Below the pieces are notes generated by a model, which worked only from the letters and a program-made list of their open reading frames with translations, had not been told where the DNA came from and made no database searches. A program made the translations under genes and the position numbers. Positions 14,501-44,171 of a stretch of DNA of 64,000 bases are shown here, piece after piece; position 1 is the stretch's first letter, and each line of letters opens with the position of its first letter. The stretch comes from Asterias amurensis (Eukaryota > Echinodermata > Asteroidea > Forcipulatida > Asteriidae): NCBI RefSeq assembly GCF_032118995.1, contig NC_092648.1:19062450-19126449 (forward strand), written 5' to 3'.

Positions 14501-17500
14501 GTAATGCAGGCTTGCTTCTTTGTTTAGAGTTGATCTTAAGGTATTCACCGAGAACCCCCTTAAAATAACGGGAGGTTATGGTTTACCTTGGTTAATTACT
14601 GCAAAAATTTAAAGCCATTGGACCCTTTTGGTAAACAGTATTGTCCAAGGCCCACACTTCGTGTATCACAACTTCTATATGAAATAACAAACCTGTGGAA
14701 ATTTAGGCTCAATCGGTCATCGGAGTCGGGAGAAAATAACGGGAAAACCCACCCTTGTATCCGCACAATTCGCCATGTCATGACATGTGTTTAAAATAAA
14801 TCCATAATTCTCGATATCGAGAATTGATATTGTTTTACTGTTTTCTCAAAAAGTTAAGAATTTTACGGAATAATATTTCAAGAGAAGTCTTTCACCACTA
14901 CCTTCTGTAAACCCTGTAAGTCATGTGTAAATCTGTGAACTTTTTTTTCTTCTCTGTACCGAAAGGGTCCAATGGCTTTAAACGACCATAAAAACTTATT
15001 TGGTAAGAAGCAGCTTTTGAAAATGTGTAACATTTTGAGAAACGGTTCCCTTCTCAGGAATAAGGTTTTAGATGGTACTGTTAATTTTTTTGGCATCGGG
15101 GATAAAAAATATCGTTTGATTTTTACCCTTACATCGATGTGTATGAAGCACTGTTATACTCAGTACTTTCCCAAGTTCTGTGAACATCCACTAAATCACT
15201 GCCCGCTGCTCAGTCTTTTCGACTTGCTTGCCTTCGGGATAGCTCGTTGGTCTATTGGCAAGACATCTGCTCTAGCAATGTAAAGGTCGTGGGCTCGAAT
15301 CCCACCCGAGTGATTTGCCGGTGAATATTTTCACAGAACTTGGGGAAAGAGTAACTGAGTATACAGTGCTTAATACATATTGGTGTCAGGGTAGAACCAA
15401 ACTAGATGTCAAGAAGTTGAGGTGCTTGACGAAGACAAAATTACATGATGTTGTGACGATATTTTAGTTTTTATTTTTTTTTTCTTCTCATTGTAGAAGG
15501 TGTCAAAGTACTCTTGAGAGCAATTGAAATCTACATCGACATGGGACGATTCACCATCGCTGCTAAGCATCACATCTCAATTGCGGAAATCTACGAGAAC
15601 GAGATGGTTGACCTCGAGAAATCTGTTGAGAACTATGAGAGGGCAGCAGACTACTACAAAGGGGAGGAGTCAAACAGGTAGGAATCAGATCGGGGAAGGG
15701 GGGGTAAGGACTGGTTGGCTTGCTTTGGAAGAGTTAAAACATGGTGTTTTTAAATGTGTGGGCGCTCTACCAACTGAGCTATCTAGACCTATGTTGGCGG
15801 TCTCCTTATGTTGTCAATATCTTTGTTCGTGTGGCCAGTTAGAAGCCATACAACCATTAACTGCTGTGTAGCCAGGGATCACACCCTAGTTTACGATACA
15901 CCCTGGGAACAGCAGCCAGGGGATCACTTAAAGGGGATGTGACTTTTTATTTCAAATATCAGTTAATAAACCACAAGGGAAACTGACTTGGTGGATTCAT
16001 TAGTAATTTGGGGTTGAGTTTAATACATGTTAAATTTGCATAGGGGATAAAGAATTATTTTCATTTTGGGTTTTTACCCATACATGGGTTATACACCGAT
16101 GTGTGTTATCACTGTATACTCAGTACTTTCCCAATTTCTGTGAACAAAATCACAGGCATGTTAGTCAGGTGGGGTTCCCACTCACGACCTTTGCAATTCT
16201 ATTGCAGTGTCATACCAACTTTGGGCTGAACAAAGAAAGTGTCTGGTCAGAACTCGGTTTCCCTTTGTGGTTTATTACTTGATAATTAAAATTTTAAGCA
16301 GACTTTATTAAATGTTGCTCTCTATTTTGTTATACTTTCAGCTCTGCTAACAAGTGCTTACTGAAAGTAGCAATGTATGCTGCACAGTTGGAAGACTACG
16401 CAAAAGCCACAGAAATCTACGAGGAGGTTGCCAAAACCTCCATGGAAAACCCACTGCTCAAATACAGTGCTAAAGACTACTTCTTCAAGGTAAGTGGTTC
16501 AATAGGTGTGATGTTCCTTGAGGTTGCACTTTGCCTCATCGTGGTGTTCCGTGGTGTTTTGTCGAAGCTCCCATAGAAGCAATTGGCTACTGGAGTCATA
16601 ATGGGTGTTCAGTGTAAACAAACCAAGCAAGCGATGCGTAGTGTGCATGGAAAAGCATTGCTGTTTCTAAGGGCTTTTGCCATTATGTGCGGAAGAAGCC
16701 ATGCTTGAATACGCGCACTGGGCGTGGCTGTTTGGTTTGTTTACATTGTTTACCCACCTATGAATCAAGTGACTTGTTGGACCGTATTTTTTCAAAATTC
16801 TGAAAAGTCTCTCCTAAGATTTTATTGCATTTATCACTTCTTTTGCTTTTCACTGTATTTATTGAAGCCATAAGGCCATGTCACGTGAGGTAATTTACTG
16901 GCAACCAGTTCCAGGCAATCTCTGATAAGTAAATTCATTCACATTTCAATGTTCTCATTATTTTTCTGGGGATAGTGAGTTTTTTGTTGTGTTACTGAAC
17001 TGTTAGCTTTTGCATATGCACAAGTGGTTGCCTCCAAAATTTCCCAATGTGACATGGCCTTAAACCAATTTGTCTAAACCCCTCATACTGTCGGGGAGAT
17101 TTTGCCTCAGCGATTGTGGTGGATTCTTAATTGCAATTCCCCATAAACAGATTCCCTTTCCTTGCACCTTATACCTTCTTTTTATGTTTGATAAGTTTGT
17201 ATGATTGATATGTTTTTATGAATGATGTTTATACTGACTTACTGAAACAACTTGCTGATCGTTTAAAATGTATCTTATTGTTTCTCTTGAGTCTTTAAGA
17301 TTGCCTGAAATGTTCATGTACTATTGATCACTTTGTGTATTATATGATTGTACTGTACACGTGCCAGCAGTGTCGATGTCAAGGCTGACAGACATGGTGC
17401 ATTATAAATGCTCACTATTATTATTTTTATTACGTACATTTATTGCTGTTAATATTGTTAATGATGTCTTTCACTGAGACCCATTGGTACCTGTGCTTGT

Positions 17501-19499: not shown

Positions 19500-21536
19500 T
19501 CTTACTGCAGCAACTCCTCCAGCGGATTTAAAGATAAGCCCCTTTTGATCTCTGTAAAAAGAAACAAAATTATACATTTAAGATCAGAATACTGTAATAT
19601 TAAGTGGACGATGATTCTCTAGATGTTAGTGATGCTCACAGTCATTGTTTACATCAATAATACCATTGAAAGTCAATGATTTGCTTTTATACTTTTTCTT
19701 CTCTTCGTGTCGCGGTCATTTTTAATGTGTCAGTTCCTCAAAATTAGTTACTCCTTTTAGATGAATTCAAAGTAGATTGACAATCGTCGATAGTATTTAT
19801 TATGATTCATATTGATGTATAATGTGCGGAGGTGAGGTTTTGTAATCGGGGCTCAAATTCTTTGAGGGGGAAAATCCCTAAGACTGCAGGGGCTTGTAGC
19901 TCAAAAGTTTTGCTGAATCAAAACTTCTTTTTACAAAACCAGGTGCAAAATGAGTTGAACAAGCACTAAAAGAAGATCTATCAAATTTGTCACGCTACTG
20001 CGGTACTCGACAGGAATCGAAAGATATCAGATTCATTGTATATTACAAGATACTACACAATAAGGTTTATCGGGATTCAAAACCACAATGCGTTATGGGT
20101 AAGCAGATGGGGCATTTGCTACCGCGGTGTATGTTGTCATGCACGATGTGCGCACACATGGCCTATATCTTCGTGTGGGTTCAACAGCGCCCTCTCTTGA
20201 TATTTTGCTATTCACGATAAACCTTTTGAGGTATTACTATTGTTAGTAAATTAAAAAACGCATGACCACCTCGGGCTTATCCTGTTGTGATTTTATTGAC
20301 CCAACTAGTCTCAGGCCTGGGATCCAGTGTTAATTTCGGGCTCTGCTACGAGATACCATCAACTCATACCACCTCACATAAAGGCATTTCCTTCTGCACT
20401 CCTTTGAATCGCCCAAAAGTCGTGTAGCTTAACTGGTATTACTTGTTGAACATTCAGGAGTTTATGCCTGGCACTTCTTTTCAGTTGAATAACGCTGTAT
20501 TTACTTGTTGGACATTCAGGAGGTTGTGGCTGGCCTTTTTTCAGTTTAATCACACTGTATTATACACATATTTTATGCACCATAAATCTAATTGGTTTTA
20601 TCTGACAGCTTTAACATTTTCCCCACCATGCATCAATTTCAAATTATGCTCATTTGACAAATTGCATCACATTTGCATGTTCTGATTGCAAAATGTTTAT
20701 TAAAATTCCTTGTGACATTCTTTCTCCCACAAAAACAATTCTTTATCTGTCAGGATACACTTTATAAAATAAAAAAATCTTCTTCAGAGATGGAAATGTT
20801 CAAGAGCATTTTAATTGTAGTTGATTACATTTGGTCATAGTCTTGAAGACAAATTTTCCTTCAACTCCTTTACGAAGCTGTTTAAATATTTACCTAAAAC
20901 GGCTTCAGTCCTGTTTATTAGATTGATAATGATAGATTCACGTTTGTACAAAACCAAAGCTATAAATGTAATATTTACACAACCTGTAAAATAAGTAAAC
21001 AAATAAAATGATCACCCAGTTTGTAAGTTATGAGAATTTGATTTTTTGCCATTATATAAGAAAAAGAACATGTACATTTTTTGTTTATGTACTTATGTGA
21101 GTGTTCCCATCCAAATAATCTCTGATTGATATTTTGATATAAGTGCTTGGTAGAGTAAAGTTGCTTCTCAAAGAAACTTTTCAATAGGAGAACGAGGGTA
21201 ACAACCAAGCTGTCTCCATATTGGATTTTTGTTTAAACTAATAATGAACGCTTTTGTAGCACTGGTACCTGGCAGTTTTGACACTTGTGCCATTCATGTA
21301 TGAATGTAAATACTCCTAGTCACTGGGCCATTTATTTCATTCCCTTGAAAGGAGTTTACAGCCTGTACTGCTAAGTACATGTATGTAGCGCACCAAGCTA
21401 AATCAAACAACAGAACCATCTCTGCCCTCACAGGTACCCATTTACCCCTGGGTGAAAAGAAGCAATTACAAAGTTGGGTGTCTAATGACTTAACTACCAG
21501 AACTTGAGTCCAGTGCACTAGACCGCCTGGCTAGTG

Positions 21537-21956
21537 GTGTGCGGTAACTTGGTCATAGTTAACGGTGGGATGCGGTAACTTGGTCATATTTAACAGTGGA
21601 ATGCGGTAACTTGGTCAAAGTTAACAGTGGGATGCGGTAACTTGGTCAAAGTTAACAGTTGGATGCGGTTACTTGGTCAAAGTTAACAGTGGGATGCGGT
21701 AACTTGGTCAAAGTAAACAGTGGGATGCGGTAACTTGGTCAAAGTAAACAGTGGGATGCGGTAACTTGTTCAAAGTAAACAGTGGGATGCGGTAACTTAG
21801 TCAAAGTAAACAGTGGGATGCATTAACTTGGTCAAAGTAAACAGTGGGATGCGGTAACTTGGTCAAAGTTTACAGTGGGATGCCGTAACTTAGTCATAGT
21901 TAACAGAGGGATGCTGTAACTTGGTCAAAGTTAGCAGGGGATGTGGTAACTTGGTC
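21537..21956. repeat. 31-bp minisatellite, about 14 copies
   Basis: The consensus begins TGCGGTAACTTGGTCAAAGT, continues TAACAGTGGGA, and repeats at a regular 31-nt step. Units differ by a few substitutions (TTAACA/TAAACA). There are no unique spacers, so it is not a CRISPR array. Confidence 0.95.
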
Positions 21957-28036: not shown

Positions 28037-31000
28037 TCACTTCTTCTTCTCTTCATTGGTGACTAGGAACAGCTTTTGGCACCAGTGAGTGACACCAACT
28101 ACAGAAATTAAAACGTGAAACTCAAATTAAACATGTGCAAGTGTCAAAGCACAGGGAGTTCTGTCTAAAATTCCAGGCAAAAATGAATGCAAGAAGCAGT
28201 TCTGTACTTTTCCTCAAATCTCAGTTAAATGCATCTTTCCTCAAATCTCAGTTAAATGTATCGTTTCTCAAATCTCAGTTAAATGTATCGTTTTTCAAAT
28301 CTCAATTCTGTATCTTTCCTTCAATCTCATTTCGGTATCTTTCCTTTAATCTCATTACGGTACCTTGCCTCGAATCTCAATTCATATCTTTCCTTCTTTC
28401 TCAATTCAGTATATTTCCTTCATTCTCAATTCTGAATATTTCTTCTAATAACAACTCAGTTTCTTTCCTTCTTCCTCAATTCAGTATCTTCCCTTCTTTC
28501 TCAGTGAGTTCTGTATCTTTCCTCCAGTATCAATTCTGCATTCATCTCAATTCTGTTTTTCCTCTAAATCTCAACTCAAAACTTGTTCTCATCTCTGTAT
28601 CTTTCATCAAATCTCAAACTGGTATCTTCCCTTCAATCTCAGTTCTGCATCATTCCCAAACCTCAAGTCAGTATCTTTCACCAAATTTCAACTCTAAAAT
28701 ATCTATCCTCCAATCAAAGTCTCAACCTTGCTTACCTTCAATCTTATGGAGGAATTTCGGAATCTTAGCAGGTCTGATTAAGATGAAGTAGAATGGTACT
28801 CCCGTTAAGGTGATGGCAACCCCTATAAGGGTGTCTAACGGAGCCGAGATTGTCCCCAAGACAACCAGGGCAAATGATGCAATGGTGAAGAAGATAGGTA
28901 GACCAATGAAAACCTATGAGCAGGGAAGAATACATAATTACAAACCAATCTCATAGGACCCTTCTTCGTAAACCTGTTGGGAAAAAGTTAGCCTTTTACT
29001 CAGGTGGGATTTGAACCCAGGACCTTTTTATAATCATTCTAGAGCAGATGTCTTATCACTAGAACACATTTTACCAGGTAGCCAGAGGCAGTTTGAATCC
29101 TACGTTTTAGCAGCAAGTACTGCATTAATTTGTAAGATGTTAAATTTGTATCAGGGATAAAGAGCATTAATGCATGTTATTTTCCCAGTACAATCACTGT
29201 ACGCTGAAAACTTTCCCTGAGTCTTGTGAAAAAATCCACAGACAAATTACTCTGGTGGAATCTGCAGAGCGAAAACTGGAATTTCTGACCAGAACCAAGG
29301 CTTAAGGGTTAAGCCGTCATAACCAATCATATTTACCCATGTGAGCGTCTTTTAATAAACTTTATAAAAGTACTACAATTGTTTATAACAATTCTACAAT
29401 TTGCTGAAGGAAACTGCACGAACCTTGTATGGTCTTGACATTTCAGGTTTCTTCCATCGTAGATATAACAGTCCGGCAGACAGAGCCCCACTGGATGTCC
29501 ACAGGACAAAGTTGAAATAGTTGATGAGTGTGTAGACATCCTTGGCAAACACGTACACACATGTCAGGAATGTCTGAGGAAGTACAGAGATAACAAAGTT
29601 ATTCCAAATTTGAAGATAATTGGAGAATTAGATAATGGTTCCTGATGAAAACTTTTTACCTAGAGGTTGAATTTCAATTTGTTTTTAAAGCTGCCTAAGC
29701 ACAACAAGTAGCATGAAGCAAAATTATGCTTGCTAGAATAAGGTTACCAGCAAATATACTATGTCGCATCGCATGTAGAATCTGTGACTGGTATCCTGCT
29801 CATTTTCCCTAAAGCAGAATCAGTTTTTTTTTACTTAAGCAGCTCTATGTGTTTCGGCCGAGAATAGACCTGTAAATCTTAAATGTATTCAATCATCAAG
29901 ACCAATTCAGTACCAATTGTACCCTTTACAATGTCTCCAAGATAGAATAGCCTGTTCAAGATATAAGACCAAACATTTGGGTTTTGTGTTATTAAGAGTA
30001 GATTATTTTATAGGATTTAAGACAGCATATTGTCTCAATGCCTTGTGAATTATGGTTTACTATTACCCCTAAAGCAATTTCATGCTCAACTTTCCAGACT
30101 ACAAACTTTCCAGATGAAAAATCTACGAAATCTGTGTTGATTAATGGACAATCCAGTGAACGATTTCCTTCGAAGAGCAAAATGCTCCGCAAAATGTCTC
30201 AATTGCTACTCAAAAATCATCATTTGCTACTCAATATTATCATTCAGTGTGTACAAAACTTTCCACTCTAAATATTTTGCTCAGCAAAATTGCTGGACGA
30301 AAAATCGTTCCCTGCAATCTACAAAGAAATCTGATTGGACTGGAAAGGTTTGGATGATGTAATTTGTTGACATACCACGACGAGGAGAGAAGGCATAGGG
30401 GTCTTCCTCTTGATATCAATCATAGCAAGGACATTAGGCAGCTGTCTATCTCTCGCCCCAACGAAGAACATCCTACAACAAGAAAAACACATTGATAAAA
30501 AGAATGCAATCCGGTATCCAGTAACCCTAATTGTTAAATACTGAATCAATCCCAATAGCAATTGGTGTAATAAGAGTCTTTTGAATTCTGAGAAATTATC
30601 AAAAGTTTTTTTAAAGCCAATGGACCCTTTCGGTAAACAGTGTTGTCCAAGGCCCACACTTTGTGTACCACAACTTCTATATCAAATAACAAACCTGTGA
30701 AAATTTAGGCTCAATCGGTCATCAGAGTCGGGAGAAAACAATGGAAAAACCCACCCTTAATTCCGCGCGTTTCGCCGTGTCATGACATGTGTTTCAAATA
30801 AATCCGTAATTCTCGATATTGTTTTGCTGTTTTCTCAAAAAGTAAAGCATTTCATGGAATAATATTTCAAGAGAAGTCTTTCACCATTGCCTTCTGTAAA
30901 CCCTGTAAGTTATTTGTAAATCTGTGAGCTTTTTTATTTTTGTCTGAACCGAAAGGGTCCAATGGCTTTAAACCTTAGTCTGAACTCCAACCCACTACGG

Positions 31001-34000
31001 CTTACATTATTCAGCACAACTCCACAGCTTTCTTTATTGTAAGCAAAACTGTATGCCTAAGAATTATTAGTTTTTTGAATTCTGCAAGTGAATCTCTTTA
31101 AGATAATGTAATACTTGATTGCATCAGTTTTCTTCACTAATGATTGTTGGTTAACAAGTGGATTTTCAAACCTTAGGTTGATAATTGTGAACTAAGTGCA
31201 GAAAGCCACAGTTGAAAGTGCCATGCAATTTGGTTTAAACAAGAGGGTAAAATATAAAAAGTTCAATAGTTCAAAACTTGCAAAGTCATGTGTGGAAGCA
31301 TGGACTATATCAAGACCGTAAACCAAAGATCTCAGTTTTTCAAGAAATATATTTTAAGAAGTCAATGTTTTGAATCCAAACTTAAGTTTGGGTGTGCCTT
31401 TTTTTTAAACTGGACAATCAATTTTAAATCCACAGGTAATCCTGATAAAGTAAATCGCCTTTTGTTACGATTCAAAACAGATTAAAAACATTTTTAACCC
31501 ACCTTCCTCCATTAACTATTAGTTGTTGCTTGTTTTACCCTTTAATAATATTGTCAGTAGATCTAGACATAATTGATCAGTAAGTTTCCTACAGTGACAT
31601 TAAATATCACATAATCAGTAACATGTACCCATCTGTGATATTCAGTAGCATTGTGTTTGGAGTGCAAAGAATGAATGAAAAATTTAAAAGGTCAAAACTG
31701 AGTAAAGTTGTAAAGCATGATCTCGTTGCTGAAAATGAGATGCACTGAAGTTGGACTTGAATATGGTAACAAATGGACTGAACGAGTGTGAAAAATCAAA
31801 GTTAAATTGCCATTTCTTGTTCTGAACTTTGTGGTTTTGTTGAGTTTCAAATTTAAGTATCGTCGCCTTCCATACAGAGTGTTGGTAGAAAAACATTGAG
31901 TGAGAAGTAAAATTATGAGAGGTCAGTTCTTTAGATTTTGTTCAGATTTTTTTTCCAATCACAAAGCTTGAATTCATGTTATCATTTTATTTCTACAATC
32001 AAAAATTATAAGACATGAAACACAATAAAGCGGACGAGTTTGCATCAGTTTTCCCTAATTGTTATGTCAAGTACTTGAAACAACCCAAAAAGTGTTCCAG
32101 TATGTGAATAGACATGCAGGCTAATATTGAAAATGTTTGACTTGGTTATTCGGTAGCATGGACCCATCTGCGCTACTCAGGAGCATTATGTTTAGCGCTA
32201 TTCAGGAGCATTATGTTTAGAGTGCCCTTCATTTTCAATTAGTGGGCGTCATTGAGTCATCGGAGGGTGGGTTTGACTCCTGGTGATGACACTTGGGTCC
32301 TTGCAATGACCAGAGACTAATGTAAAGCAAACATTGATAGATTATTGTAAAATGCACTATGTAAGAACAACTTATTATTTATTATTATTATGAATATATT
32401 ATTGTAAATTTGTCATTCCATTAAGGAAAATTGAGGATGATTTAAAAAAGGAAGACTTTTAACAAATTTAATAAACTAAAACTATTTTCAGTATAGGCCT
32501 GCATGCCCCTTTATATTGAAATACTTATTTGGGTGGGTGGTTTCAGGTACTTGCACAAATTTACAACCACTGGAAGAGCTACTGATGTGGTGGATGCAAA
32601 GTGGTCCCCTTTGTTGCGTTTATTGTCATTACAGGAAACTTTGTTCTCTTTGTTTACAGTTATAGAATAGACTATTACACACACATACATGGCGGACCAA
32701 ATTTGCGTAAATTAATTACACGACAGCATCAGCAAAGTCTGTCATCTCTTGTAGGAAGCGCACAAAAAATGGATGTACTGGCATGTAAAGAATTTTAATG
32801 CGATTTCACTTCTGCAATGACAAAAGATTATCTCTAGTGTTTATTTTTTTACGTTTTAGATATTAAATATTTTTTAAAGAAGATAAATTCAGAATAATGC
32901 AACACATTTTGTGGCATTCCACTTTGGACACTGTAGGAGTTCAACAATCAGATTGTAATGTACTCTACCAACATTGAATTCAACCATCAGATAATCTGTT
33001 ACCATTGGTCTTATAATGATACGAGTTTGACAATATTCTTTTAAAACTGATGTTATTGTCAACTATGCCTTACAAATTACGCATAATCTGGCCTTGATCA
33101 TTATCAATGATTCGTTTGAAAAACAACCTCCGTGCATGTGTGTAATAGTCTACATTGGTCAACAATTACCTAGATAAGCCGAGAAGGCTTCCGTTATTTG
33201 AGCCAAATGTCGACATCGCAACGAACACTGGCATACACCATGCAAAGACCCCCAAGACCTTGATACCAAATGTCTGAATAAAACAGCCAAAAAAACAGCA
33301 ACAGTTTTTACATCGCTCTGATGATGGAAATAGTGATAAATGCTTACCTGGTTCTATCATGGAGGGAAAGGGGGACACGGGTCTTTCATTGTATTGTTGC
33401 TTTGGCAATGCAACTTACCTCCAATGTTCAATAGTTTTTGGCTGGCTTTTAAGTGAAACAAACATTTAAGCATGATTGCATAATGGAGACAAAAGCATGA
33501 AGTACAATATCTGTCAGGTCAATATACAATGATGGTAACCCTGGTTATAAAGCCCTGGCCCTCCTAGTGACTGATCAGTCAATATCATTCAACTTCATTC
33601 AGGGTTCAGAATTTGAAGGTTGCCTCAACTTTGATAATAAAAAAGGTTACAAAGAAATGCAAGTTGAAATGGAGGAAATAGAGATGTTTCTTATCTAACT
33701 GGAAAGCAGTCTTGTGTTTCTAAACGTGTGCTGTAATGCAAATGAGATTAGGAGCAGTATGATCAGAAGCAATTTGAAAAAGAAAAATTTTGAAGAAAGA
33801 AAATTGTAAAAGTAATGGCTGCATTGATACTGTAAAATTCATGATAACAGCAAGATGTATACCTTGGGTAAAATGAATCAAAAATGTAAAGATGCTATTA
33901 AATATTTGTGCAGTAGGTTTTTCAAGACACAAACGGAAGTAGTAATAGAAGATATTTCAGACAATACTGACAACAACAAAAAACAAAAAAATCAGACAGT

Positions 34001-37000
34001 CCCGGCCCAGATAACTTTGTTTTAGGTAATTTAAAAATGTAAGCCCACTTTCAATCCTCCAACCAAAAGTACACACCTTTTAAGTTTTACACTAAAATAA
34101 ACTATGACGAAAAAAAATGTGTTCAAGAGAATCTAATGAGTTGATTCAAAACTTCATACTTTGTCTATGTGTACATGATATGTATACCTTGAGAAAGACA
34201 GAAAACCCCCATTATTAGATCCCAAGGTTGACATGGCAACAGAAACCGGCAAAATCCAAGCAACAACTCCTAGTAGTTTCTGGCCGAATAGCTAATTATT
34301 GCACCAAAATAATAAAGGAAATTAGTAACTCGAATCACCTGGCTGAATACTATTTTGTTAAATTTGTGACGAACGTTGAGCTGCTTCTTGAAAAAACTTT
34401 ATAAGAAAACTTCTAATTGATGGACAGCAAGTTTGTATATTGCTTATTTTGGAATCTTGTCCCCTCAAAATTAATAAGTGTGCCTCAATAATCAAGATGA
34501 TGTGCCGTAAAAAATTGCTATCAATTTGTTCATATCTTGTATTAGGGCAAATTTTTAGTCAGGTGGTCCTGAAATGTACAAAGAAACGGCTGGAATTGCC
34601 TAGGTAGCCAAGGACGTTTGTTTAGAACACTTAGAAAGAAATTGACAATTGCCTTTGTTCACATAAAAACCCATTGGAATGATATCAACTGATCGGTTTA
34701 AAAAGGAGTGTCAGTGCTCAGTTTCTCATCTAACGGTGAGGTAGCCTTAAACAACTCTAGCAACCAAATGTTTAAATCTCTTTAGCCGTGTTTCCAAACT
34801 TGTGCTGGAATGTAAATAAGGTAAAAAGCATTTATAAGTAATATGATTAGAAGCAATTTTAAAAGGAGAAGAAGAAAAAAAGCTATAGAAAATTGCAAAT
34901 GTCATGGCTGCATTGATTTTTTTAATTCATGATAAAAGCCAGGAAAATACTTTTGGTAAAATGACTGAAAATTGATACAAAAAAAATGAAAACCCAATAA
35001 ATATTTGTCATCATTGGTACAATGGCACAAGATAACATTGTTTTTGTTTTTTGACTTCGCTCAGCAATTTTTCATAGCAAACAACTTGGACTGAACTTAT
35101 TTTGTTCAAACTGAATGCCAATATTGAGTTGCAAATAAGTTTTGGTTTTTTTTCCCCCCTACAGTTTGTATATATTTTGCTCTGAAACCGTTTGCTGGAA
35201 ACAACATACTTTAGTTACTGATCTCATAACCAAGACGCCATGACCAAACCAATCCATTCAGTAGAGGTCTGGTCAGAGTACAACCCGTACAAACCCCATG
35301 GCCTGATTGACTGATATTTGATACGAAATACTTCCTGCTGGATGTTTCTTGAAAACAAAAACCAATCTTCTTACCAAAAGCATTCATTTCACTTGATGAA
35401 TAAATTTAAATAAAAATATGATTGCATAAATATAAAAGATGTTTGAGAGAAGCGTAAAATTTATTAAAAAAAAAAATTGCTTGGTGTATATACCTTGAGA
35501 AGGCAAGGAAACTTCCATTATTAGATCCCAAGGTTGACATGGCAACAGACAGCGGCATTATCCAAGCAATAATTCCCAGCAGTTTTACTCCGAATTGCTA
35601 ACAACGTGGCCCCGATAAATAACAGAAGAAGTTAGCCACATAGAATCTCTGGCCCTGAACCACTTTAAAATGTTCACTAACTAGGGATCAGGTTAGTGGT
35701 TTTTGTTCCCTGTTTTTCACCTTTGTGGACCCCGGTTCGAATCCCACCTCAGACTGGAGCCATGTGGATCGGGTTTTTAGTCCCTACCTGGACATTGGTT
35801 TTCCCATTAGGGTTTTCCTCCCACATCTAAAACTGACATCCTTTTTTTCCTGTTATTGGTGCTAATTGTGCTGTTGGATGTGTAATCATTTTTTGCCGAC
35901 TGTTCTTCAAAGAAATAATGTCCAAATGATGGATTTTAGTTCTAGGAGTGATGACGCAAACAAGCATGTAGTTTAATTTACACTAACAAACATACAAATG
36001 ACTTGGGCATGAGTGTTTTGCATAATTAACCCAAAATGTAAAACAGAGTTTTAAATGTTGGAGTTTTTAAATCGTATGCTGAATGTGTCTTTATACCTTG
36101 AAAACGCAAGGAAGTTCCCATTATTGGATCCAAAGGTTGACATAGCAACAGAAAGCGGCATTATCCAAGCCAGAATTCCGAGAAGCTTAAGGCCATATGT
36201 CTAATACAGCCATAAAATAACAGAGGATGGAAACAATTCTGCAAACTAAATCTCCCCTCCACCCAAACCTTATCCTCAATTCAAAAGAGAAGAACTTAAC
36301 TGGAAAACTGGTGCAGCTTTAAGAGTCTACCCAAATCTAACATAATATTTGAGGTACCAGTTGAACAGATATTTGACTGTACCTCTTATGTTTAAGTTAA
36401 AGTATACTTCCACAACTTTGAAACAAAATTTGCCGAATCTTGCATTAAAGTCCTTGACTACCCAACCCTGTATCTTGCTATTTGAGGTTTGTGTCTTCCA
36501 TACTCCCAGGGATATTTGCTCCCATCTCAGTGTAGACTTGTGGGCAAGTTGTTCAATATTTGTCACGATGATAGCGTACCAACTCTCTCTGCGAATCCCG
36601 CATCACTGGTAATGTTCTTGTGAGACTGCTGGCTCCTGAGAGACTACTCCTCTCGCAAAAACAGTCCAATTTAGTTGTCGGAGTCAGCATCCCCACAAGA
36701 GAGCAGTAGTCTTGCGAGAGTAGTCTCCTCAGACAACAACAGTATCGTGCGAGTCCCCAAAAGGCTGTTACGCTATCACCGTAAGAAACATGTAATGACT
36801 TGTCCACAAGTCTAGTCTTAGTGTTACTTTCAAAGGTTGACCAACACATCTTCTATTATCATTTTCAGTCAACTATAAGTCTGGTTAGTGTGTAACAACA
36901 AAAACTGTTTATAATATAACATAGCTATTCAGTAGAGATCTTTCTTTTATTTTCAAAAGTCTGGAGTAATGATCTTCACTGCTGTTGTATTGGCAGTTTC

Positions 37001-40000
37001 TTCTGCAGCTGATCAGAACATGCACAGTGGACGCATCCAACTTGTGATCTGTATGTCCAAACATTTTTAACTATAAAAGAAAGATCTCCACTTGCTCAGT
37101 ACATAATGAAGTAAAATTTCAATCGCTTTCTCAAACAAAAACGCTTACCACAGCGACGGCATCAGATGCAAGTAACTCTTGAGGTGTCATTGCGGTGAAG
37201 TAGGCAACATTGGCAAAAACGTAAAATATTGTCACTATCGTCATGGTAATATAAATAGCACGGGGTAGATTTCTGCACATGAATTGAAACAAAAAAAGTT
37301 GAAATTTAATAAAATTCAAAGAAACAAGGTAATTTTAATTATGTTGGTGTAATGTTGAGTGGATGATATCGAACAAATAGACAAAGCCTGGTGAGATCTT
37401 AACTCATGTGTCAATACAAACCATGTAGATTTTATTCAGTGCTTTAAAATGATTGGAAAAGGAGCACTAGGCTGGAAATTCTTGGTTCAGACCTTGAATT
37501 ACACAACAGTCACAAATGTTTCCCATATTGTCCGCTACGTCTTGCATGAATTTAAACACAGTGCGCATGGACCATTCCCACCATTTAGAGGGTCAATTTC
37601 TTTGCATATATTTTGACTCCCATTATTATGGAGAGGATAGGCATTAAGCTTGGGCGATATCATGATATTATCGAATATCGCGATATTAATTTGGAAACGA
37701 TTTCGATATCGGATGGATTTGGTTGTAATCGAAACTGCGATATATCGTGATATCGATTAAATATCGAAATGTATTTGCTAGCTGAGACATCTTGCACCCC
37801 ATAGGTTTGGAGTAAAACCAGAAGAATAGGTCATAAGAACACCTCTCTTATGCTATGACTGTCTCTTCTACAACTTTCACTTGGAGTTTGAAGACTGATG
37901 ATGTCAAATTTAATTAATCGCGAATATCCCAATGTATTGTCGGCGATATATCGTGAATAAAATAAATCGATATCGCCCAAGCTTAATAGGCATGTGTGAA
38001 ATAATACAAGATTCTTGTATAGCACTTTATCATAACTGATGAGCATCTCATAGCACACAGATGTGTTGCCTAATCACTTACTTATATGGATTCTTTAGTT
38101 CCTCAACAACATTGTTCAAGTTATACCTGTAGCATGGAAGAGTAAATGAAACAACACAAACTAATTAATGGCAATTCACCAAACCAATGGAAGAACAATT
38201 ATCAACAGCAGCTCTCCCTTAGTGTGGTCCACTGAAAAAATGCTATTCACTTTTAACTTTTGCATTCCACTTTTGAATGTCCAGTGGTAAAGTTGGGTAG
38301 TTTAGTTTTGGAAAGCATACCCATCAAATGTAAAGTTCTGGACTAGTAAAAAGCTGGTTGACTATAATGACATAACAAGGTTAATACTGAAACTGGTCCT
38401 GCTTGCTTATCACTGAAAACGTTATGGGCAAACTTTGATCAGCGATGGTTTCAGGTGAATCCCAAGCTATAACTAACAAATAAAAACATTCATTCAAACA
38501 CATTCAACACACTCATTGTTGGGGTACCCGCTGCCAAAACATAGGATTCGAACTGCCTCTAGCCACCGGGCAACCTTGGTAGTCTAGTTGGTAAGACACT
38601 GCTCTAGAATTGCAAGGGTCGTGGGTTCGAATCCCACCCGAGTAACATGCCTGTGATATTTGTTCACAGGACTTGCGAAAGTACTGAGTATACAGTGCTA
38701 ACACACATCGATGTATTGGTAAAAAAAAAAAATTAACATTCATTCATGTACATATAAATGGTCAAGGAAGGTATTGGCTATCATACATGAGGTCAATCTC
38801 ATTAAAAAAAACTTGATTAATTAACACCCAACTTACCAGCCTGCATATGAGAAAAGGCCAGAGTATAAGGCATTTCCAAGGCCACCGTATGTTGTCCCTT
38901 CAAATGAATTCTCAAAACTGGTTGTATCACCTGCAATAAATAGACACACAAACATGCCTCTTTAATAGCAACACAGGTTAGCAGCCGTTATTTAGTGCAG
39001 GGACTAGACCTATTATTACACCTTAGTTTTGGCCTTTGTGCCCTTCAAAACTTGCTCAAAGACTTTAAGATTTTCCCAATTCCAGGCCAGAAATGTACAG
39101 CACTATTCTTTGCCACTCAAAAAAGATTTCTGTGAAGTTGCCCATCTGAGTCAGGGCTCAAATTTGGGAGAAAAATAATCAACAAGAACGCAGGATTTCT
39201 AACTCAAAATGTTTACTGTACAATACCAGAATCAAAACAAGAATGAACAACCTCCTGACACTGCTATAGTTTAAAGCCATTGGACCCTTTCGGTAAACAG
39301 TGTTGTCCAAGGCCCACACTTTGTGTACCACAACTTCTATATCAAATAACAAACCTGTGAAAATTTAGGCTCAATCGGTCATCGGAGTCGGGAGAAAATA
39401 ACGGGGAAAACCCACCCTTGTTTCCGCGCGTTTCGCCGTGTCATGACATGTGCTTAAAATAAATCCATAATAACGAGAATTTTTATTGTTTTGCTGTTTT
39501 CTCAAAAAGTAAAGCATTTCATGGAATAATATTTCAAGAGAAGTCTTTCATCATTGCCTTCTGTAAACCCTGTAAGTTATTTGTAAATCTGTGAACTTTT
39601 ATTTTTGTTCTGAACCGAAAGGGTCCAATGGCTTTAACATGCATAATGTTTTTGTTTGAACTATATAAAGCTTTTAGGAAAACATGTTACAAGAGAAGAT
39701 TTCTCTTATCTGTCTTTTGGAATATTATGTATACTTCATTACTCAATCAAATCAGACTCAAAGTCAACACTTGTGCATAAATATTTTGTTTTTGTTCATA
39801 ATATTACACAGTGAGGTATTTTTTATTCAATGAAATACACATGACCGCCAGACCTGTCCAATCATAAGTTAACTGGCCATCAACACTAAAACCATTGGCC
39901 TTAGGCCCGCAGTCCAGTGTATAATTCGAGCCATGTGAATGAAATGTCCTTATTTTACCTCTGAATATCTGCACTGCACCCATGACAATGATGATTGTCA

Positions 40001-43000
40001 GTGCCAGCATCTTGAACACGGTGAAGACGTTTTGCACGGCAGTCGTCAAGCGTACACTGAAGATGTTGAAGAAACCGCACAACACTACATGGAAACCAGA
40101 ATGTCCAATTTAGGATTTAAATCCCGATATGTGACCTGCTCCAATAAAAATTGGCATAAAGTCGAAAATGTTATTACAAGGAAGGGAACAGTTGAGCTCT
40201 TTAACCCATTTCAAAAAACACTCGACTTTTAAAAACCTTTTCCCTATATACAGACGCAGTCCAACAATATGAACACTGAGGGCGCACTTGGGTTCCCTAC
40301 ATTTGTATCATTTGTTCTTTCTAACTTTTTGTTCTCTCCTTTGAACCTCTCAGAGACTTTGTACACAAAATTCCTTGTTGAGCACCCCAGTCATTAAAGA
40401 ATTCCCCTATGGAGACCCTTTGTGTTTCCCTTTTCCTGTTTTCATCTCGTTCTCCTTAAAGGTAGTGAATATGAAATCATCCTCTCAGGGCCATCTTTAA
40501 CTTGGGTCTGAATAGTGGGATCATGATGCATGTGTCCTTAAGTAAGGCATTCTAACACCCTTCGCCCTCAGATAAATCTTACATCAACCTCTATGGCTAC
40601 TCTAAGGTTTGATACTTCACTGAGGCAACAAAGACAATTACCTCCATGCCCCATGGTCATTGCCTTGGTGCCCTTGAAATGATCCAGTAGATATTTACAA
40701 TTTCCTCATAGGGTGGTGCCCTAATCAAGTAAAAAATGTGTTGGTGCCCTTGCCCTTTAAAGGGCACCAAGGCCTGTACTCTACCTCTAAGCCTCTACTC
40801 CTAACATTCACGGTGCAATATACTCACACACTGAGTTCAAGGCAAGTAGCTGAATGGCAATGATCGGTGGTTCGCAATCCGCAGACGGGAAAAATGGCTG
40901 CACGGCATAACGCCCGAATGTGATCGCCACCACTGCACAAGAGGCTGGCACTTGCATAATAAGTGACACCCACAAAAACAGGAACGCAGCGAATTCACCG
41001 TAGATCTCTCTGAGATAGAAGTAGAACCCCCCAGACGATGGGAACATGGTGCCCAGTTCGGCGAAGCAGAGGGCACCCAGGAGAGAGATGATACCCGCTA
41101 GTACCCATACTATCACGGTCATTCCCACAGAGCTAACACCCAGCAGAACACCTGTTAACGAGGACAAAGGGAGGAAGCAATAGGTTAACAATACTCAAAC
41201 ATTGGTTTCATTCACTAAAACTCTACTAAGAATTCCAGTGCATCAGCTGTTGTTTCATTTTCATCCACCCTGCTGTCCCCTTATGGAACAGTCTTTGGGC
41301 AGGTCTTTATAGTCGGACGCGCAATGGACATTTTGACGTGCAATCATAAAAATCAGTTTATAGTCATCGCTGAAGCATATAAACTTTTTAAGATCGTCGC
41401 GTCAAGATTTCCATCACAAAACCATCACGCGACCGACTCTTACCCAGCCTTTCCAGTCTCTGTTGTTGGCAACATGACTGGGGAAGGGATTTAGTCCTTC
41501 ACGTGTGCATGAACACCTTCTTCTTCAATACATAAACCAGCAGAGTGTTTCCTGGGTACCATACATAAACCAGCAGAGTGTTTCCTGGGTACCATACACC
41601 TTTGTTTTCTGTTGTCTAGCAACTCTTGAGTTGCTGGGAATTATTTGATAAGCCAATCAGAGCGTTGAAACCCATTTCATTAGCCAATCACAATGTTTCT
41701 TTTAAGCTTTCAATCTGATTCTTATTTTAATTCTGTTCGTTGACCTTGTTAATGTCTGTTGGGCTATTGTTTACATTCACTCACTATTATATTTAAAAAA
41801 CAAAAACAAAAACAAGATCTTGGTTTTTGTTGTCAACAAGTTGATTTTCAATGGCTGGAGATTTACAGTTCCAATCTAACCTTTTTTCTTATAAATTGTG
41901 AGATGAGTTCAGAGAAATGTGATTTATTGCTTGATGAAAAAGTGTTCATGTGAGCATTGTTTTGAGACTTGGTATGATTGTGAAAGTTAGACTTTTCTTG
42001 ACAAACCTTTAGGGGATACAAAAATCCCGGACCCGATGATGGTGCCAACATTGATGGCTACTCCACTCAGCAAGGTTATCTGACGCTGTAATTTGACTGT
42101 GCTGCCATCTTCTGAATTACTCAACTGCAAAAAACAAATAGTAATAAATAATGATGAATCTATAAATGCAAAGAAATTTGAGCAATGGTGACAAAAATTG
42201 ATGAAAACTTCATCATAACATAATCTTTTCATAGGCTAGATGCTGACTTTTTCAAATGTCAATTTGATTGGAGTTATTTTTAAATACTATAAGGATGGGA
42301 CATGTATTTGCTCAGTTAAAGAAAATAACAATTTTTAGTTTCAAGTCAATTTGCATTAAATTTGCATCCCATAAAAAGCATGACTGCAGGTTTACTGTAG
42401 CAATGCGTTACAATGGTCCCACACTAAAACATGAAACTAACTTTTTGTTCATCGTTTTTTTAATTTTTTGTGTGTGTTGATTGTTTAAATTTTTAACTTT
42501 GTAAATAAGAATTTAGTCAGACTTTGGGTTGTTTTATAATACAAATAAACAAACCACATTATCTTGATCTAAACATGTACTGGGTACTAGGTAACAATGT
42601 AATTTAAAGGGTTTCCGAGGAATTCATATCTCCAAAATACAGGACACATAATATCATTTGTAGCCCAACCATTGGAACAATTTGAGGCACAGCTTCATTG
42701 GTATACAGTTAAACCACATGTTTCCCAAGGTTTTGTTGGTTTAGCCCACAGATTATTAGCCAAGCCAGGCCCACACTGAGTGGTAGATACAGGGGGCATG
42801 ATCTGTGAAGCCACCCTGTGCTGAAATCAATTCAACATCTGCTTAATTTAGTCAGGTCAATTGGATCCGAATTGTACTGAATCTTCTGTCCACTCCGTTT
42901 GTGGAATCTGATATGAATTAAATCAGACTTGCCGAACTTTAACTTATGGAACATCCCAAAACAGAACAGAAATTTGATAAGGCACGGGACAATAGCAAAT

Positions 43001-44171
43001 TGTTATCATGACAAAAGGTACAGTTGTCCTTGCCTAAGGTTTTTGTTACAAATCACTGGGCTTTATGTTTATGTTTTGGATCTTGTTGCATTTTCCAGAG
43101 TAAGATGCCTGGACAGGCTGTCTACAGGTCACTGTGTGTTACCTGAAAATGAAAAGGTGTTTAAATTGTTTATGTTGATCGAACACTATTTGAAGACATC
43201 AGATATTAAAAACCACTCAATTTTAATTTGAAAGTGTTCAAATTAGATAGAGTGGTTTTTAATAACTTTTAACTTGTTCCATGTTGAGCATACAACTGCA
43301 CAACTGGCTAAAAAGAACATAAAATCTATAAACAATGAAAAGACTTTGAATTTATTTTTCAAAGCAATCACATTACCTATAACTTGAGCCTAATAAAAAC
43401 CTTAGAGAAATTTTGTTTAAATCCTTTAATTAGGCCTAACAATCAATCAGTCATTGAAGTTCAAAAAGTCTGTGTTTTTCAAGAATTTTTTCTATGGACA
43501 AATTTTGACAGATGATTCTTTTTCAAAACATCAGACATAGCATCTAAAAATCAGACTTTGACTGAACTACACCCCATCCGGGGAATAATATTTCACACAA
43601 GCTTTTCTTTAAAAACGAAAGGGTAATTATAGGCAGGGCATGGTGAGGTATCAATATATATTTGGTTTGCAGTAACACCATGTGTGTATCTACTTGCCAA
43701 GTAGAGTTTGTTCTAGAGGTCTTGCTTTATTCTCCTGATGATGACTAGAGCAAGCTAGTCGAAATGTTGAGACCAATTTCAAGAACCGACTCCGCAGTAG
43801 TACAGTTAATTATGATCCTTTAAGCTAAAGTAGTATAGTAGTCCCAGCGGCCTATTTCTATACCATCCGCCCAGGTAATATAGTTAATACGCAGTACTTT
43901 TCAGAACTTAGAAGTCTCCCGAACACCCAAACAATCTACTCAGCGGTAGAAGAATAAAACAAGACAGTTGTCTAGAACAAACTCTACCCCGCAAGTAGAT
44001 ACACACATGGTGTTACCGCAAACCAAATATATAAAAGGCAAATTATTGAGTATAAAATCAACTTACGAGTAATTCCTTATCATCTTGTCCAATATCAATT
44101 TCATCGGAATCAGACAGGTCTTCCAATCCTATCTCTGAAATGTGTCCTTCCGACAACATGTTCGAAGACAT
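28037..44171 (-). CDS. SLC7A8-like: Heteromeric amino acid transporter light chain (LAT2/Asc-1-like)
   Basis: It is a 12-segment plasma membrane exchanger of neutral amino acids that works disulfide-linked to an SLC3 heavy chain. Exons: 44171-44067, 42124-42007, 41151-40828, 40084-39959, 38930-38837, 38126-38082, 37272-37149, then one of four alternatives (36200-36097, 35597-35494, 34291-34188, 33273-33170), 30472-30376, 29573-29424, 28913-28736, 28098-28037. Phases agree at every junction; each isoform has 508 codons. Seen: GSGIF of unwound TM1 at 66-70; [14 protein letters not shown]; conserved Cys167 in SADCEPP, the heavy-chain disulfide position; [46 protein letters not shown]; tail [10 protein letters not shown]. 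The TM8 and [13 protein letters not shown] regions resemble LAT2 and Asc-1 more than xCT, y+LAT or b(0,+)AT (from memory). Exact substrate range cannot be read from sequence. Confidence 0.95.
28205..28720. repeat. Minisatellite in the last SLC7 intron
   Basis: Diverged units of roughly 26-30 nt built on TTTCCTCAAATCTCA and AATTCTGTATC. It keeps a long open frame on the plus strand because stops are absent from the unit, but codon-level features of a protein are missing. It almost fills the intron between 28736 and 28098. Confidence 0.9.
28980..29250 (-). mobile_element. SINE family A, rearranged copy
   Basis: Minus-strand B-box-like GGTTCAAATCCCACC (complement of 28998-29015) and CTAGTGATAAGACATCTGC mark the head. 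TGTACGCTGAAAACTTTCCC and related pieces further right are tail-like. It lies in an SLC7 intron. Confidence 0.6.
30020..30360. repeat. Dispersed repeat, related to 46620-46870
   Basis: AAATCATCATTTGCTAC, CATTCAGTGTGTACAAA and a following TTCC...AATATTT block recur at 46635-46720. The type is not recognised. It lies in an SLC7 intron. Confidence 0.55.
30611..30971 (+). mobile_element. TTAA MITE family 2, copy 2
   Basis: TTAA-AGCCAATGGACCCTTTC at the left, GAAAGGGTCCAATGGCT-TTAA at the right. TTAA flanks and long terminal inverted repeats match copies at 14609 and 39271. It lies in the SLC7 intron downstream of TM8 exon D. Confidence 0.88.
30972..33169. other. SLC7 intron, nothing recognised
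   Basis: AT-rich intronic DNA between TM8 exon D and the next constitutive exon. I searched for a fifth TM8 copy by its conserved SNNG and MST segments and found none. Confidence 0.6.
33170..33273 (-). CDS. SLC7A8-like: SLC7 alternative TM8 exon D
   Basis: 104 nt with TTCAG acceptor and CTAG/GTAATT donor. It encodes [20 protein letters not shown] then [15 protein letters not shown]. It is the most diverged copy: Cys in AWCMP, Phe in PVFVAM, and LLGLSR. Its STFGS..GSL motif is closest to vertebrate LATs, so it could be the ancestral-like copy. Confidence 0.93.
34188..34291 (-). CDS. SLC7A8-like: SLC7 alternative TM8 exon C
   Basis: 104 nt with TTAG acceptor and CAAG/GTATAC donor. It encodes [20 protein letters not shown] then [15 protein letters not shown]. 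Gly at the LAT1 Ser342 position. Its upstream intron shares a block of about 220 bp with the intron upstream of exon D. Confidence 0.93.
35494..35597 (-). CDS. SLC7A8-like: SLC7 alternative TM8 exon B
   Basis: 104 nt with TTAG acceptor and CAAG/GTATAT donor. It encodes [20 protein letters not shown] then [15 protein letters not shown]. Same phases as A, C and D. Ser at the LAT1 Ser342 position; Leu replaces Phe in the STFG motif. Confidence 0.93.
35690..35840 (+). mobile_element. tRNA-derived SINE, family B
   Basis: B box GGTTCGAATCCCACC followed by ATGTGGATCGGGTTTT and CCACATCTAAAACTGAC. The A box is diverged. It is inserted in the intron between TM8 exons A and B, antisense to the gene. 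Confidence 0.7.
36097..36200 (-). CDS. SLC7A8-like: SLC7 alternative TM8 exon A
   Basis: 104 nt, AG acceptor at 36202-36201 and CAAG/GTATAA donor. It is phase-compatible with the exon ending at 37149 and the one starting at 30472. It encodes residues 313-347, [20 protein letters not shown] then [15 protein letters not shown]. Nearest to exon B (29 of 35 residues). It has Asn at the position aligned with LAT1 Ser342. Confidence 0.93.
37644..37986. mobile_element. MITE with GGGCGATATC termini, TTAA-flanked
   Basis: Ends TTAAGCTTGGGCGATATC and its exact complement GATATCGCCCAAGCTTAA. The interior is rich in ATCG/ATATCG and has no coding capacity. It lies in the SLC7 intron between 38082 and 37272. 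Confidence 0.88.
38545..38735 (+). mobile_element. tRNA-derived SINE, family A (good copy)
   Basis: A box TAGTCTAGTTGGTAAGACAC, B box GGGTTCGAATCCCACCCGAG, body TGCCTGTGATATTTGTTCAC, then AGTATACAGTGCTAACACAC and an A-rich tail. It is antisense in an SLC7 intron. Confidence 0.85.
39271..39637 (+). mobile_element. TTAA MITE family 2, copy 3
   Basis: TTAA-AGCCATTGGACCCTTTC to GAAAGGGTCCAATGGCT-TTAA, with TTAA on both sides and an interior nearly identical to the copy at 30611. High similarity suggests recent activity. Confidence 0.88.
40640..40790. repeat. Dispersed repeat related to 52240-52350
   Basis: TTACCTCCATGCCCC, GGTCATTGCCTTGGTGCCCTT and TTACAATTTCCTC match TTGCCTCCGTGCCCC, GGTCATTGCCTCGGTGCCCTT and GTAATTTCCTTG near 52250. 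Fragments with GGCACCAAGGCC appear elsewhere. Class unknown. Confidence 0.6.
41530..41600. repeat. 34-bp direct duplication
   Basis: ATAAACCAGCAGAGTGTTTC with CTGGGTACCATAC occurs twice in tandem without mismatch, so it is young. Intronic. Confidence 0.85.
43644..44034. mobile_element. Foldback element with about 70-bp inverted ends
   Basis: The left arm starts GAGGTATCAATATATATTTG and includes TTTGCAGTAACACCATGTGT and GTAGAGTTTGTTCTAGA. The right arm carries their complements in mirror order (TCTAGAACAAACTCTAC, ACACATGGTGTTACCGCAAA). It ends about 30 bp from the donor of SLC7 exon 1. Confidence 0.82.

Follow-up and report, generated by a model that had tools for sequence, protein, structure and literature searches.

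Four tandem TM8 exons in a LAT-type amino acid exchanger gene of the starfish Asterias amurensis: a candidate mutually exclusive cluster

INTRODUCTION

The mammalian gene SLC7A2 gives rise to CAT2A and CAT2B through alternative splicing, which changes 19 residues around transmembrane helices 8 and 9 (TM8-TM9); the two forms have distinct tissue distributions and transport properties (PMC7764698). Here we describe a gene of the same SLC7 family, in the starfish Asterias amurensis, that carries at nearly the same place four tandem versions of the exon for TM8 and that very probably contains a four-member mutually exclusive exon cluster in a LAT-type amino acid exchanger. The gene lies in a 64-kb window (the whole stretch of DNA that was analyzed, G000:C1:19062450-19126449) of a 491.5-Mb, 23-contig assembly. 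Whereas SLC7A2 belongs to the CAT branch and has two forms, the starfish gene belongs to the LAT branch and has four exon versions. We presume that CAT2A and CAT2B are produced by mutually exclusive exons.

Other solute carriers offer more distant parallels. Three mutually exclusive exons are reported for SLC12A1 (NKCC2) (PMC9741552). As in the starfish gene, duplicated exons, more than two in number, stand in tandem within a transporter gene, but SLC12A1 is unrelated. Its mutually exclusive exons span a membrane helix and alter ion affinity. SLC25A3 and SLC39A14 are also among the solute carriers with mutually exclusive exons (PMC5740500). They belong to families other than SLC7. Each has two such exons. 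In Dscam-type clusters, one exon is picked from a tandem array; the starfish cluster shares the array, but scans of its upstream and downstream introns demonstrated no docking/selector pair. The first-pass annotation of the window, made from the sequence alone, noted no described SLC7 case with four TM8 exons. This holds for a four-way or LAT-type SLC7 cluster, none of which was found among the matches listed in searches of open-licence literature, but SLC7A2 is a two-way precedent in the TM8 region.

RESULTS

Four consecutive minus-strand segments, each 104 nt long, are preceded by AG, followed by GT, open throughout, and run from phase 0 to phase 2. All four encode AW.(M/L)P, VAMST and GSNNG, as the first-pass annotation had described. 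They share 22 to 28 of 34 residues in pairwise comparison, and 15 of 35 positions vary. When exons 2 to 11 are joined with copy 4, the translation is an exact stretch of P0001, annotated in A. amurensis as "Y+L amino acid transporter 2-like isoform X1". The gene extends on the minus strand from about 44171 to 28037, with the following features:

44061..44171, minus strand: first coding exon region, residues 1-37 of P0001 (protein-to-genome match G000:C1:19106510-19106620; borders approximate)
42007..42124, minus strand: constitutive exon, TM1 region (AG/GT borders; joined translation is part of P0001)
40828..41151, minus strand: constitutive exon with the conserved Cys of the FPSADC stretch (Cys167 of P0001)
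39959..40084, minus strand: constitutive exon (exon joining)
38837..38930, minus strand: constitutive exon (exon joining)
38082..38126, minus strand: constitutive exon (exon joining)
37149..37272, minus strand: constitutive exon directly before the cluster (phase 0 end at ...DAVAV)
36097..36200, minus strand: TM8 exon copy 1 (104 nt, AG/GT, open; acceptor tract pyrimidines 10/16)
35494..35597, minus strand: TM8 exon copy 2 (104 nt, AG/GT, open; 8/16)
34188..34291, minus strand: TM8 exon copy 3 (104 nt, AG/GT, open; 8/16)
33170..33273, minus strand: TM8 exon copy 4, the annotated version found in P0001 (104 nt, AG/GT, open; 12/16)
30376..30472, minus strand: constitutive exon directly after the cluster (exon joining)
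29424..29573, minus strand: constitutive exon (exon joining)
28736..28913, minus strand: constitutive exon (exon joining)
28037..28098, minus strand: last coding exon, including the stop codon (exon joining)

The introns flanking and separating the TM8 copies measure, in order, 948, 499, 1202, 914 and 2697 nt. By its sequence, the transporter is an SLC7 LAT-type light chain of the amino acid permease family (PF13520, 206 bits; PF00324, 111 bits). Compared with solved relatives, the best 17 of the 33 matched distinct sequences were a consensus xc- light chain, y+LAT1/2, LAT1/2, Asc-1, xCT and b0,+AT (389 to 482 bits), with CAT1 at 59 bits or less. Cys167 of P0001 is invariant across 50 aligned proteins; we take it to correspond to LAT1 Cys164, the extracellular Cys that bonds the SLC3 heavy chain.

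Exons 37272-37149 and 30472-30376, which flank the cluster, can be joined in frame through any single copy, as had been proposed. We joined all 16 ordered inclusion sets with coding exons 2 to 11, and the normal stop was reached only by the four sets with a single copy. The other 12 run into an early stop that lies 372 to 724 nt upstream of the last junction (398 nt when all copies are skipped), so decay of such messages is expected. Hence, the earlier claim that zero, two or three copies break the frame stands, but its companion, that all four together keep it, does not: the length modulo three is restored, yet an out-of-frame copy brings an early stop. An assembly artefact is ruled out because the copies differ at 19 to 39% of 102 sites, far above the haplotype level. 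No fifth copy was found with an ungapped 34-residue profile run over six frames of the window, in which the four copies score 169 to 178 and the next segment no more than 43, which is noise.

Neighboring homologous exons of equal length and phase and intact splice borders, all present here, are features of mutually exclusive clusters; a frame that stays full only with single inclusion supports such a reading but does not define it. Among human clusters, 377 of 629 (60%) include exons with a length not divisible by three, and 87% of the structure-mappable exons have an end within a secondary-structure element (PMC5740500). The same source names a pair of transmembrane-helix exons as unlikely to act as cassettes, since the topology would flip. 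The starfish TM8 cluster matches this picture.

The copies have diverged mainly at synonymous sites. Nonsynonymous and synonymous divergence (dN / dS) is 0.10 / 0.93 for copies 1 and 2, 0.19 / 0.85 for copies 1 and 3, and 0.13 / 0.52 for copies 2 and 3. Uncorrected, 38 to 53% of the synonymous sites differ among copies 1 to 3, with replacement differences 3 to 5 times rarer per site, and 87 to 91% (0.87-0.91) differ between these copies and copy 4, with a dN of 0.22 to 0.26. Fisher tests on rounded counts gave p values of 8.5e-6 (copies 1 and 2), 2.8e-4 (1 and 3) and 4.6e-3 (2 and 3), and of 4e-10, 4e-10 and 2.8e-9 for the pairs with copy 4, the six pairs sharing branches and thus not being independent. 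Counted by branch, with 6 three-way sites omitted, synonymous and nonsynonymous singletons number 7 and 4 for copy 1 (p 0.005) and 3 and 1 for copy 2 (p 0.05). Constraint is clear for the whole set and for copy 1 and marginal for copy 2; copy 3 alone gives no sign of it.

Where do the copies differ? We numbered residues after LAT1 through the 6irs chain with an offset of 20, which places C335 and S342 as in the published papers. At the S342 site, copies 1 to 4 have Asn, Ser, Gly and Ser, and at the F330 site Ser, Ser, Ser and Phe; sites 336, 343, 345 and 346 also vary, and site 335 is Thr in all four. A review (PMC8399266) equates LAT1 S342 with AdiC W293, the chief substrate-attracting residue, and reports that changes at the equivalent site, SteT K295C and GkApcT M321S, markedly widen the substrate range. 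In LAT1 itself, S342G and C335A are reported to reduce activity (PMC5983779). Among vertebrate LAT paralogues, the S342 site holds Ser in SLC7A8b (P0121) and YLAT2 (P0051), Tyr in the Asc-type (P0129), Gly in the cystine/glutamate (P0161) and Thr in the b(0,+) transporter (P0048). Thus, this site varies across separate genes in the vertebrate LAT branch but inside one gene in the starfish, and splice choice would act where LAT-type transporters differ from each other. We infer that this choice alters transport by the product of the gene.

The origin of the copies was addressed with a tree of the 35-residue TM8 segment (35 columns), which held the four copies and 24 hand-chosen proteins of the 120 listed, mostly from echinoderms, with hemichordates and an amphioxus; it left out other listed echinoderm proteins, among them P0013 and P0014, in which the motif found no TM8 segment. 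The four copies and the segments of Patiria miniata and Acanthaster planci form one clade (97/97), within which copy 4 groups with the segments of these two species (99/91). This suggests that copies 1 to 3 may have parted from copy 4 before the Asterias-Patiria-Acanthaster split. At the LAT1 V339 site, all four copies have Asn, as do 3 of 233 motif-bearing proteins (242 were checked, 9 of them without the motif), namely P0001, P0002 and P0003, which are this gene in three starfish. Going by the tree and this residue, the four copies are products of this gene's own lineage.

A genome search with copy 1 (E value up to 1) returned at least 20 TM8-like matches, 4 at the cluster and 16 elsewhere, these counts being lower bounds. 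The 16 lie singly, the nearest two about 10 kb apart on contig C8 in opposite orientation, and by score none of them ranks ahead of copy 4. All 5 of the 16 that were examined are single 104-nt TM8 exons of the same phase. No second TM8 cluster was found among the matches of this search. The exon shape is thus common to paralogues, and the multiplication of the TM8 exon seems, from these matches, to be particular to this transporter gene.

The acceptor tracts of copies 1, 2 and 3 contain 10, 8 and 8 pyrimidines in 16 positions, that of copy 4 contains 12, and those of ten other exons of the gene contain 11 to 13. This pattern would fit a default copy 4 and regulated copies 1 to 3. Two introns of the cluster share a noncoding element:

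34788..34974, minus strand: noncoding element in the intron between copies 2 and 3 (72% identity to its partner over 188 aligned columns, E about 1e-25)
33714..33886, minus strand: partner element in the intron between copies 3 and 4 (aligned with 34788..34974)

No other alignment between these two introns was found, and the element was not found in the other cluster introns, the rest of the window or five paralogue loci that were searched. A coding role was rejected: stops interrupt all three frames of both copies except for a single frame, in the partner stretch of the second copy, whose open runs are short, and there is no likeness to the exons. The element may serve as a control element, may be a repeat, or may be what survives of the intron that was duplicated.

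The intron before copy 1 holds two imperfect palindromes, one at 36526-36821 (about 300 nt, 62% self-inverse) and one at 36931-37092 (about 160 nt, 66%), perhaps foldback elements. A dispersed element of about 370 nt is found at 39270-39637, about 30610-30973 and 14608-14983, with 88 to 93% identity to the one that lies in the intron downstream of TM8 copy 4. The tRNA-family match at 38573-38645 sits in a transporter intron and may be a tRNA-derived repeat.

DISCUSSION

We consider it very probable that the four TM8 exons form a mutually exclusive cluster in a LAT-type amino acid exchanger gene, as the first-pass annotation had proposed. Exon length and phase, the frame rule, the constraint on the set, the origin within the gene and the variation at the substrate site all fit. 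We hypothesize that the upstream exon splices to a single TM8 exon out of the four and that this exon in turn splices to the downstream one. Messages with zero, two, three or four copies would carry an early stop and be removed by nonsense-mediated decay or yield no working protein. Copy 4, which has the best pyrimidine tract of the four, would probably be the default, and copies 1 to 3, with weaker acceptors, would rely on splicing regulators. Each isoform would keep the helix scaffold. Since 15 of 35 positions vary, among them the equivalent of LAT1 Ser342, which lies next to the substrate, we would expect the isoforms to diverge in the substrates they prefer or in their rates. It is from the DNA and protein sequences that we infer the use of the copies in RNA, their exclusivity, their regulation and their effect on transport.

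Several observations weigh against this reading. The annotated orthologues seen in three starfish all carry copy 4 or its counterpart, and none of copies 1 to 3 was found in protein products among the listed matches (120 of 147) of a 173-column profile of the four joined exon sets. A 64-column profile gave 3 matches among 4 candidates, and none of them, P0139 and two LAT-type fragments with GSLNG rather than GSNNG, has copies 1 to 3; P0139 is a fragment of exons 8 and 9 that continues into non-exon sequence and starts after TM8, and so is silent on the copies. The protein database is clustered at 90%, which hides isoforms: P0001 represents 5 member sequences and P0002 represents 4. In favor of the reading, their names include "isoform X1" and "isoform X2", respectively, which suggests that predictions for A. 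amurensis and P. miniata include further isoforms, of unspecified kind. By the branch-wise counts described above, copy 3 has 3 synonymous and 6 nonsynonymous singletons (p 0.41). A tree constrained to hold the four copies as a clade of their own, with the other starfish outside, was not rejected (approximately unbiased test, p 0.174). For LAT1, one review (PMC5983779) questions a gating role of S342, given the strong variability of the region.

The same holds for the means by which exclusivity would be enforced. Steric exclusion is ruled out by the lengths of the inter-copy introns (499, 1202 and 914 nt), which exceed what it would allow, and all introns are GT-AG, so that, judged on borders alone, there is no U2/U12 incompatibility. 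The scan for docking sites in the upstream intron stayed at chance, with 12 of 40 shuffles as good. Intron lengths, borders and this docking scan revealed no mechanism that would impose exclusivity during splicing. In the downstream intron, none of 20 shuffles was as good as the real sequence; its best site pairs with large gaps, and the stretch it pairs with in the first inter-copy intron contains a tRNA-like motif, GGGATTCGAACC, so we do not claim it as a docking site.

Could copies 1 to 3 be duplicated relics that have not yet decayed, with only copy 4 in use? We regard this as unlikely. In its favor are the presence of copy 4 or its counterpart in the annotated proteins of three starfish, the poor acceptor tracts of copies 2 and 3, and the branch of copy 3, which lacks a synonymous excess. 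However, copies 1 to 3 are open and have intact borders despite synonymous divergence of 38 to 53% among themselves and 87 to 91% from copy 4, and replacement differences among them occur 3 to 5 times less often per site (uncorrected). Moreover, the tree suggests that their split from copy 4 predates that of Asterias, Patiria and Acanthaster.

The early stops in 12 of the 16 inclusion sets are also what a poison-exon control would produce, in which extra inclusion or skipping lowers expression and isoform diversity is secondary. Control of this kind would place no demand on the encoded protein; replacement changes are nevertheless few across the set, and a single extra copy would suffice; we therefore judge it very unlikely. 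An origin of copies 1 to 3 from a paralogous SLC7 gene, through insertion or conversion rather than duplication of the gene's own exon, is scarcely credible: Ser at the LAT1 F330 site in these copies and the similarity of copy 3 to segments such as that of P0021 (VSVAMST...NGGFLSLSR) would fit it, but all four copies have GSNNG, whose second-last Asn was seen in this gene only (3 of 233 proteins), and all four fall within this gene's clade (97/97).

Returning to the mutually exclusive cluster, we tentatively extend it to a joint hypothesis, which may well fail in one of its parts: one starfish gene would set the substrate profile of its exchanger by swapping TM8, with its S342 site, according to tissue or life stage, where vertebrates use separate LAT paralogues; the cluster would have been kept since before the forcipulate-valvate split, and the shared intron element would be part of the choosing device.

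If the cluster is indeed mutually exclusive, it amounts to a natural swap experiment on the helix of the substrate site, with four proteins that are identical except for one helix with 15 variable positions. LAT1, xCT and y+LAT belong to the same medically important group of transporters. The gene would also be a second SLC7 case, beside mammalian SLC7A2, of splicing in the TM8 region, which hints that tuning tends to act on TM8. Public RNA data, such as run SRR26104401, named in the A. amurensis genome paper (PMC11090083), lend themselves easily to a test of the reading, thanks to the frame rule and the setting in a single gene.

OTHER FEATURES OF THE WINDOW AND GENOME

Another SLC7-like gene of the assembly, at locus L010 (G000:C10:1048001-1056000), has at 5984-6854 a TM1-TM2-coding stretch extended into a tandem repeat with a 146-nt unit, present about 6 times with 96% matching. 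As 146 is no multiple of three and the reading frame ends some three units in, the repeat may have expanded recently or may reflect the assembly. In the window, an open reading frame at 2386-2658 on the minus strand contains a stretch like an ion-channel pore, FGNLGSAMFTLFQLLTLDDWF, with an E value of 1.6e-4 to PF00520, below the cut-off of that family; we take it to be CatSper-like. Nine tRNA-family matches occur (2881-8602, 15241-15313 and 38573-38645), three of which, on the minus strand at 2881, 4489 and 6715, score equally. Minisatellites are present at 5010-5799, with a 42-nt period, and at 21533-21956, with a 31-nt period.

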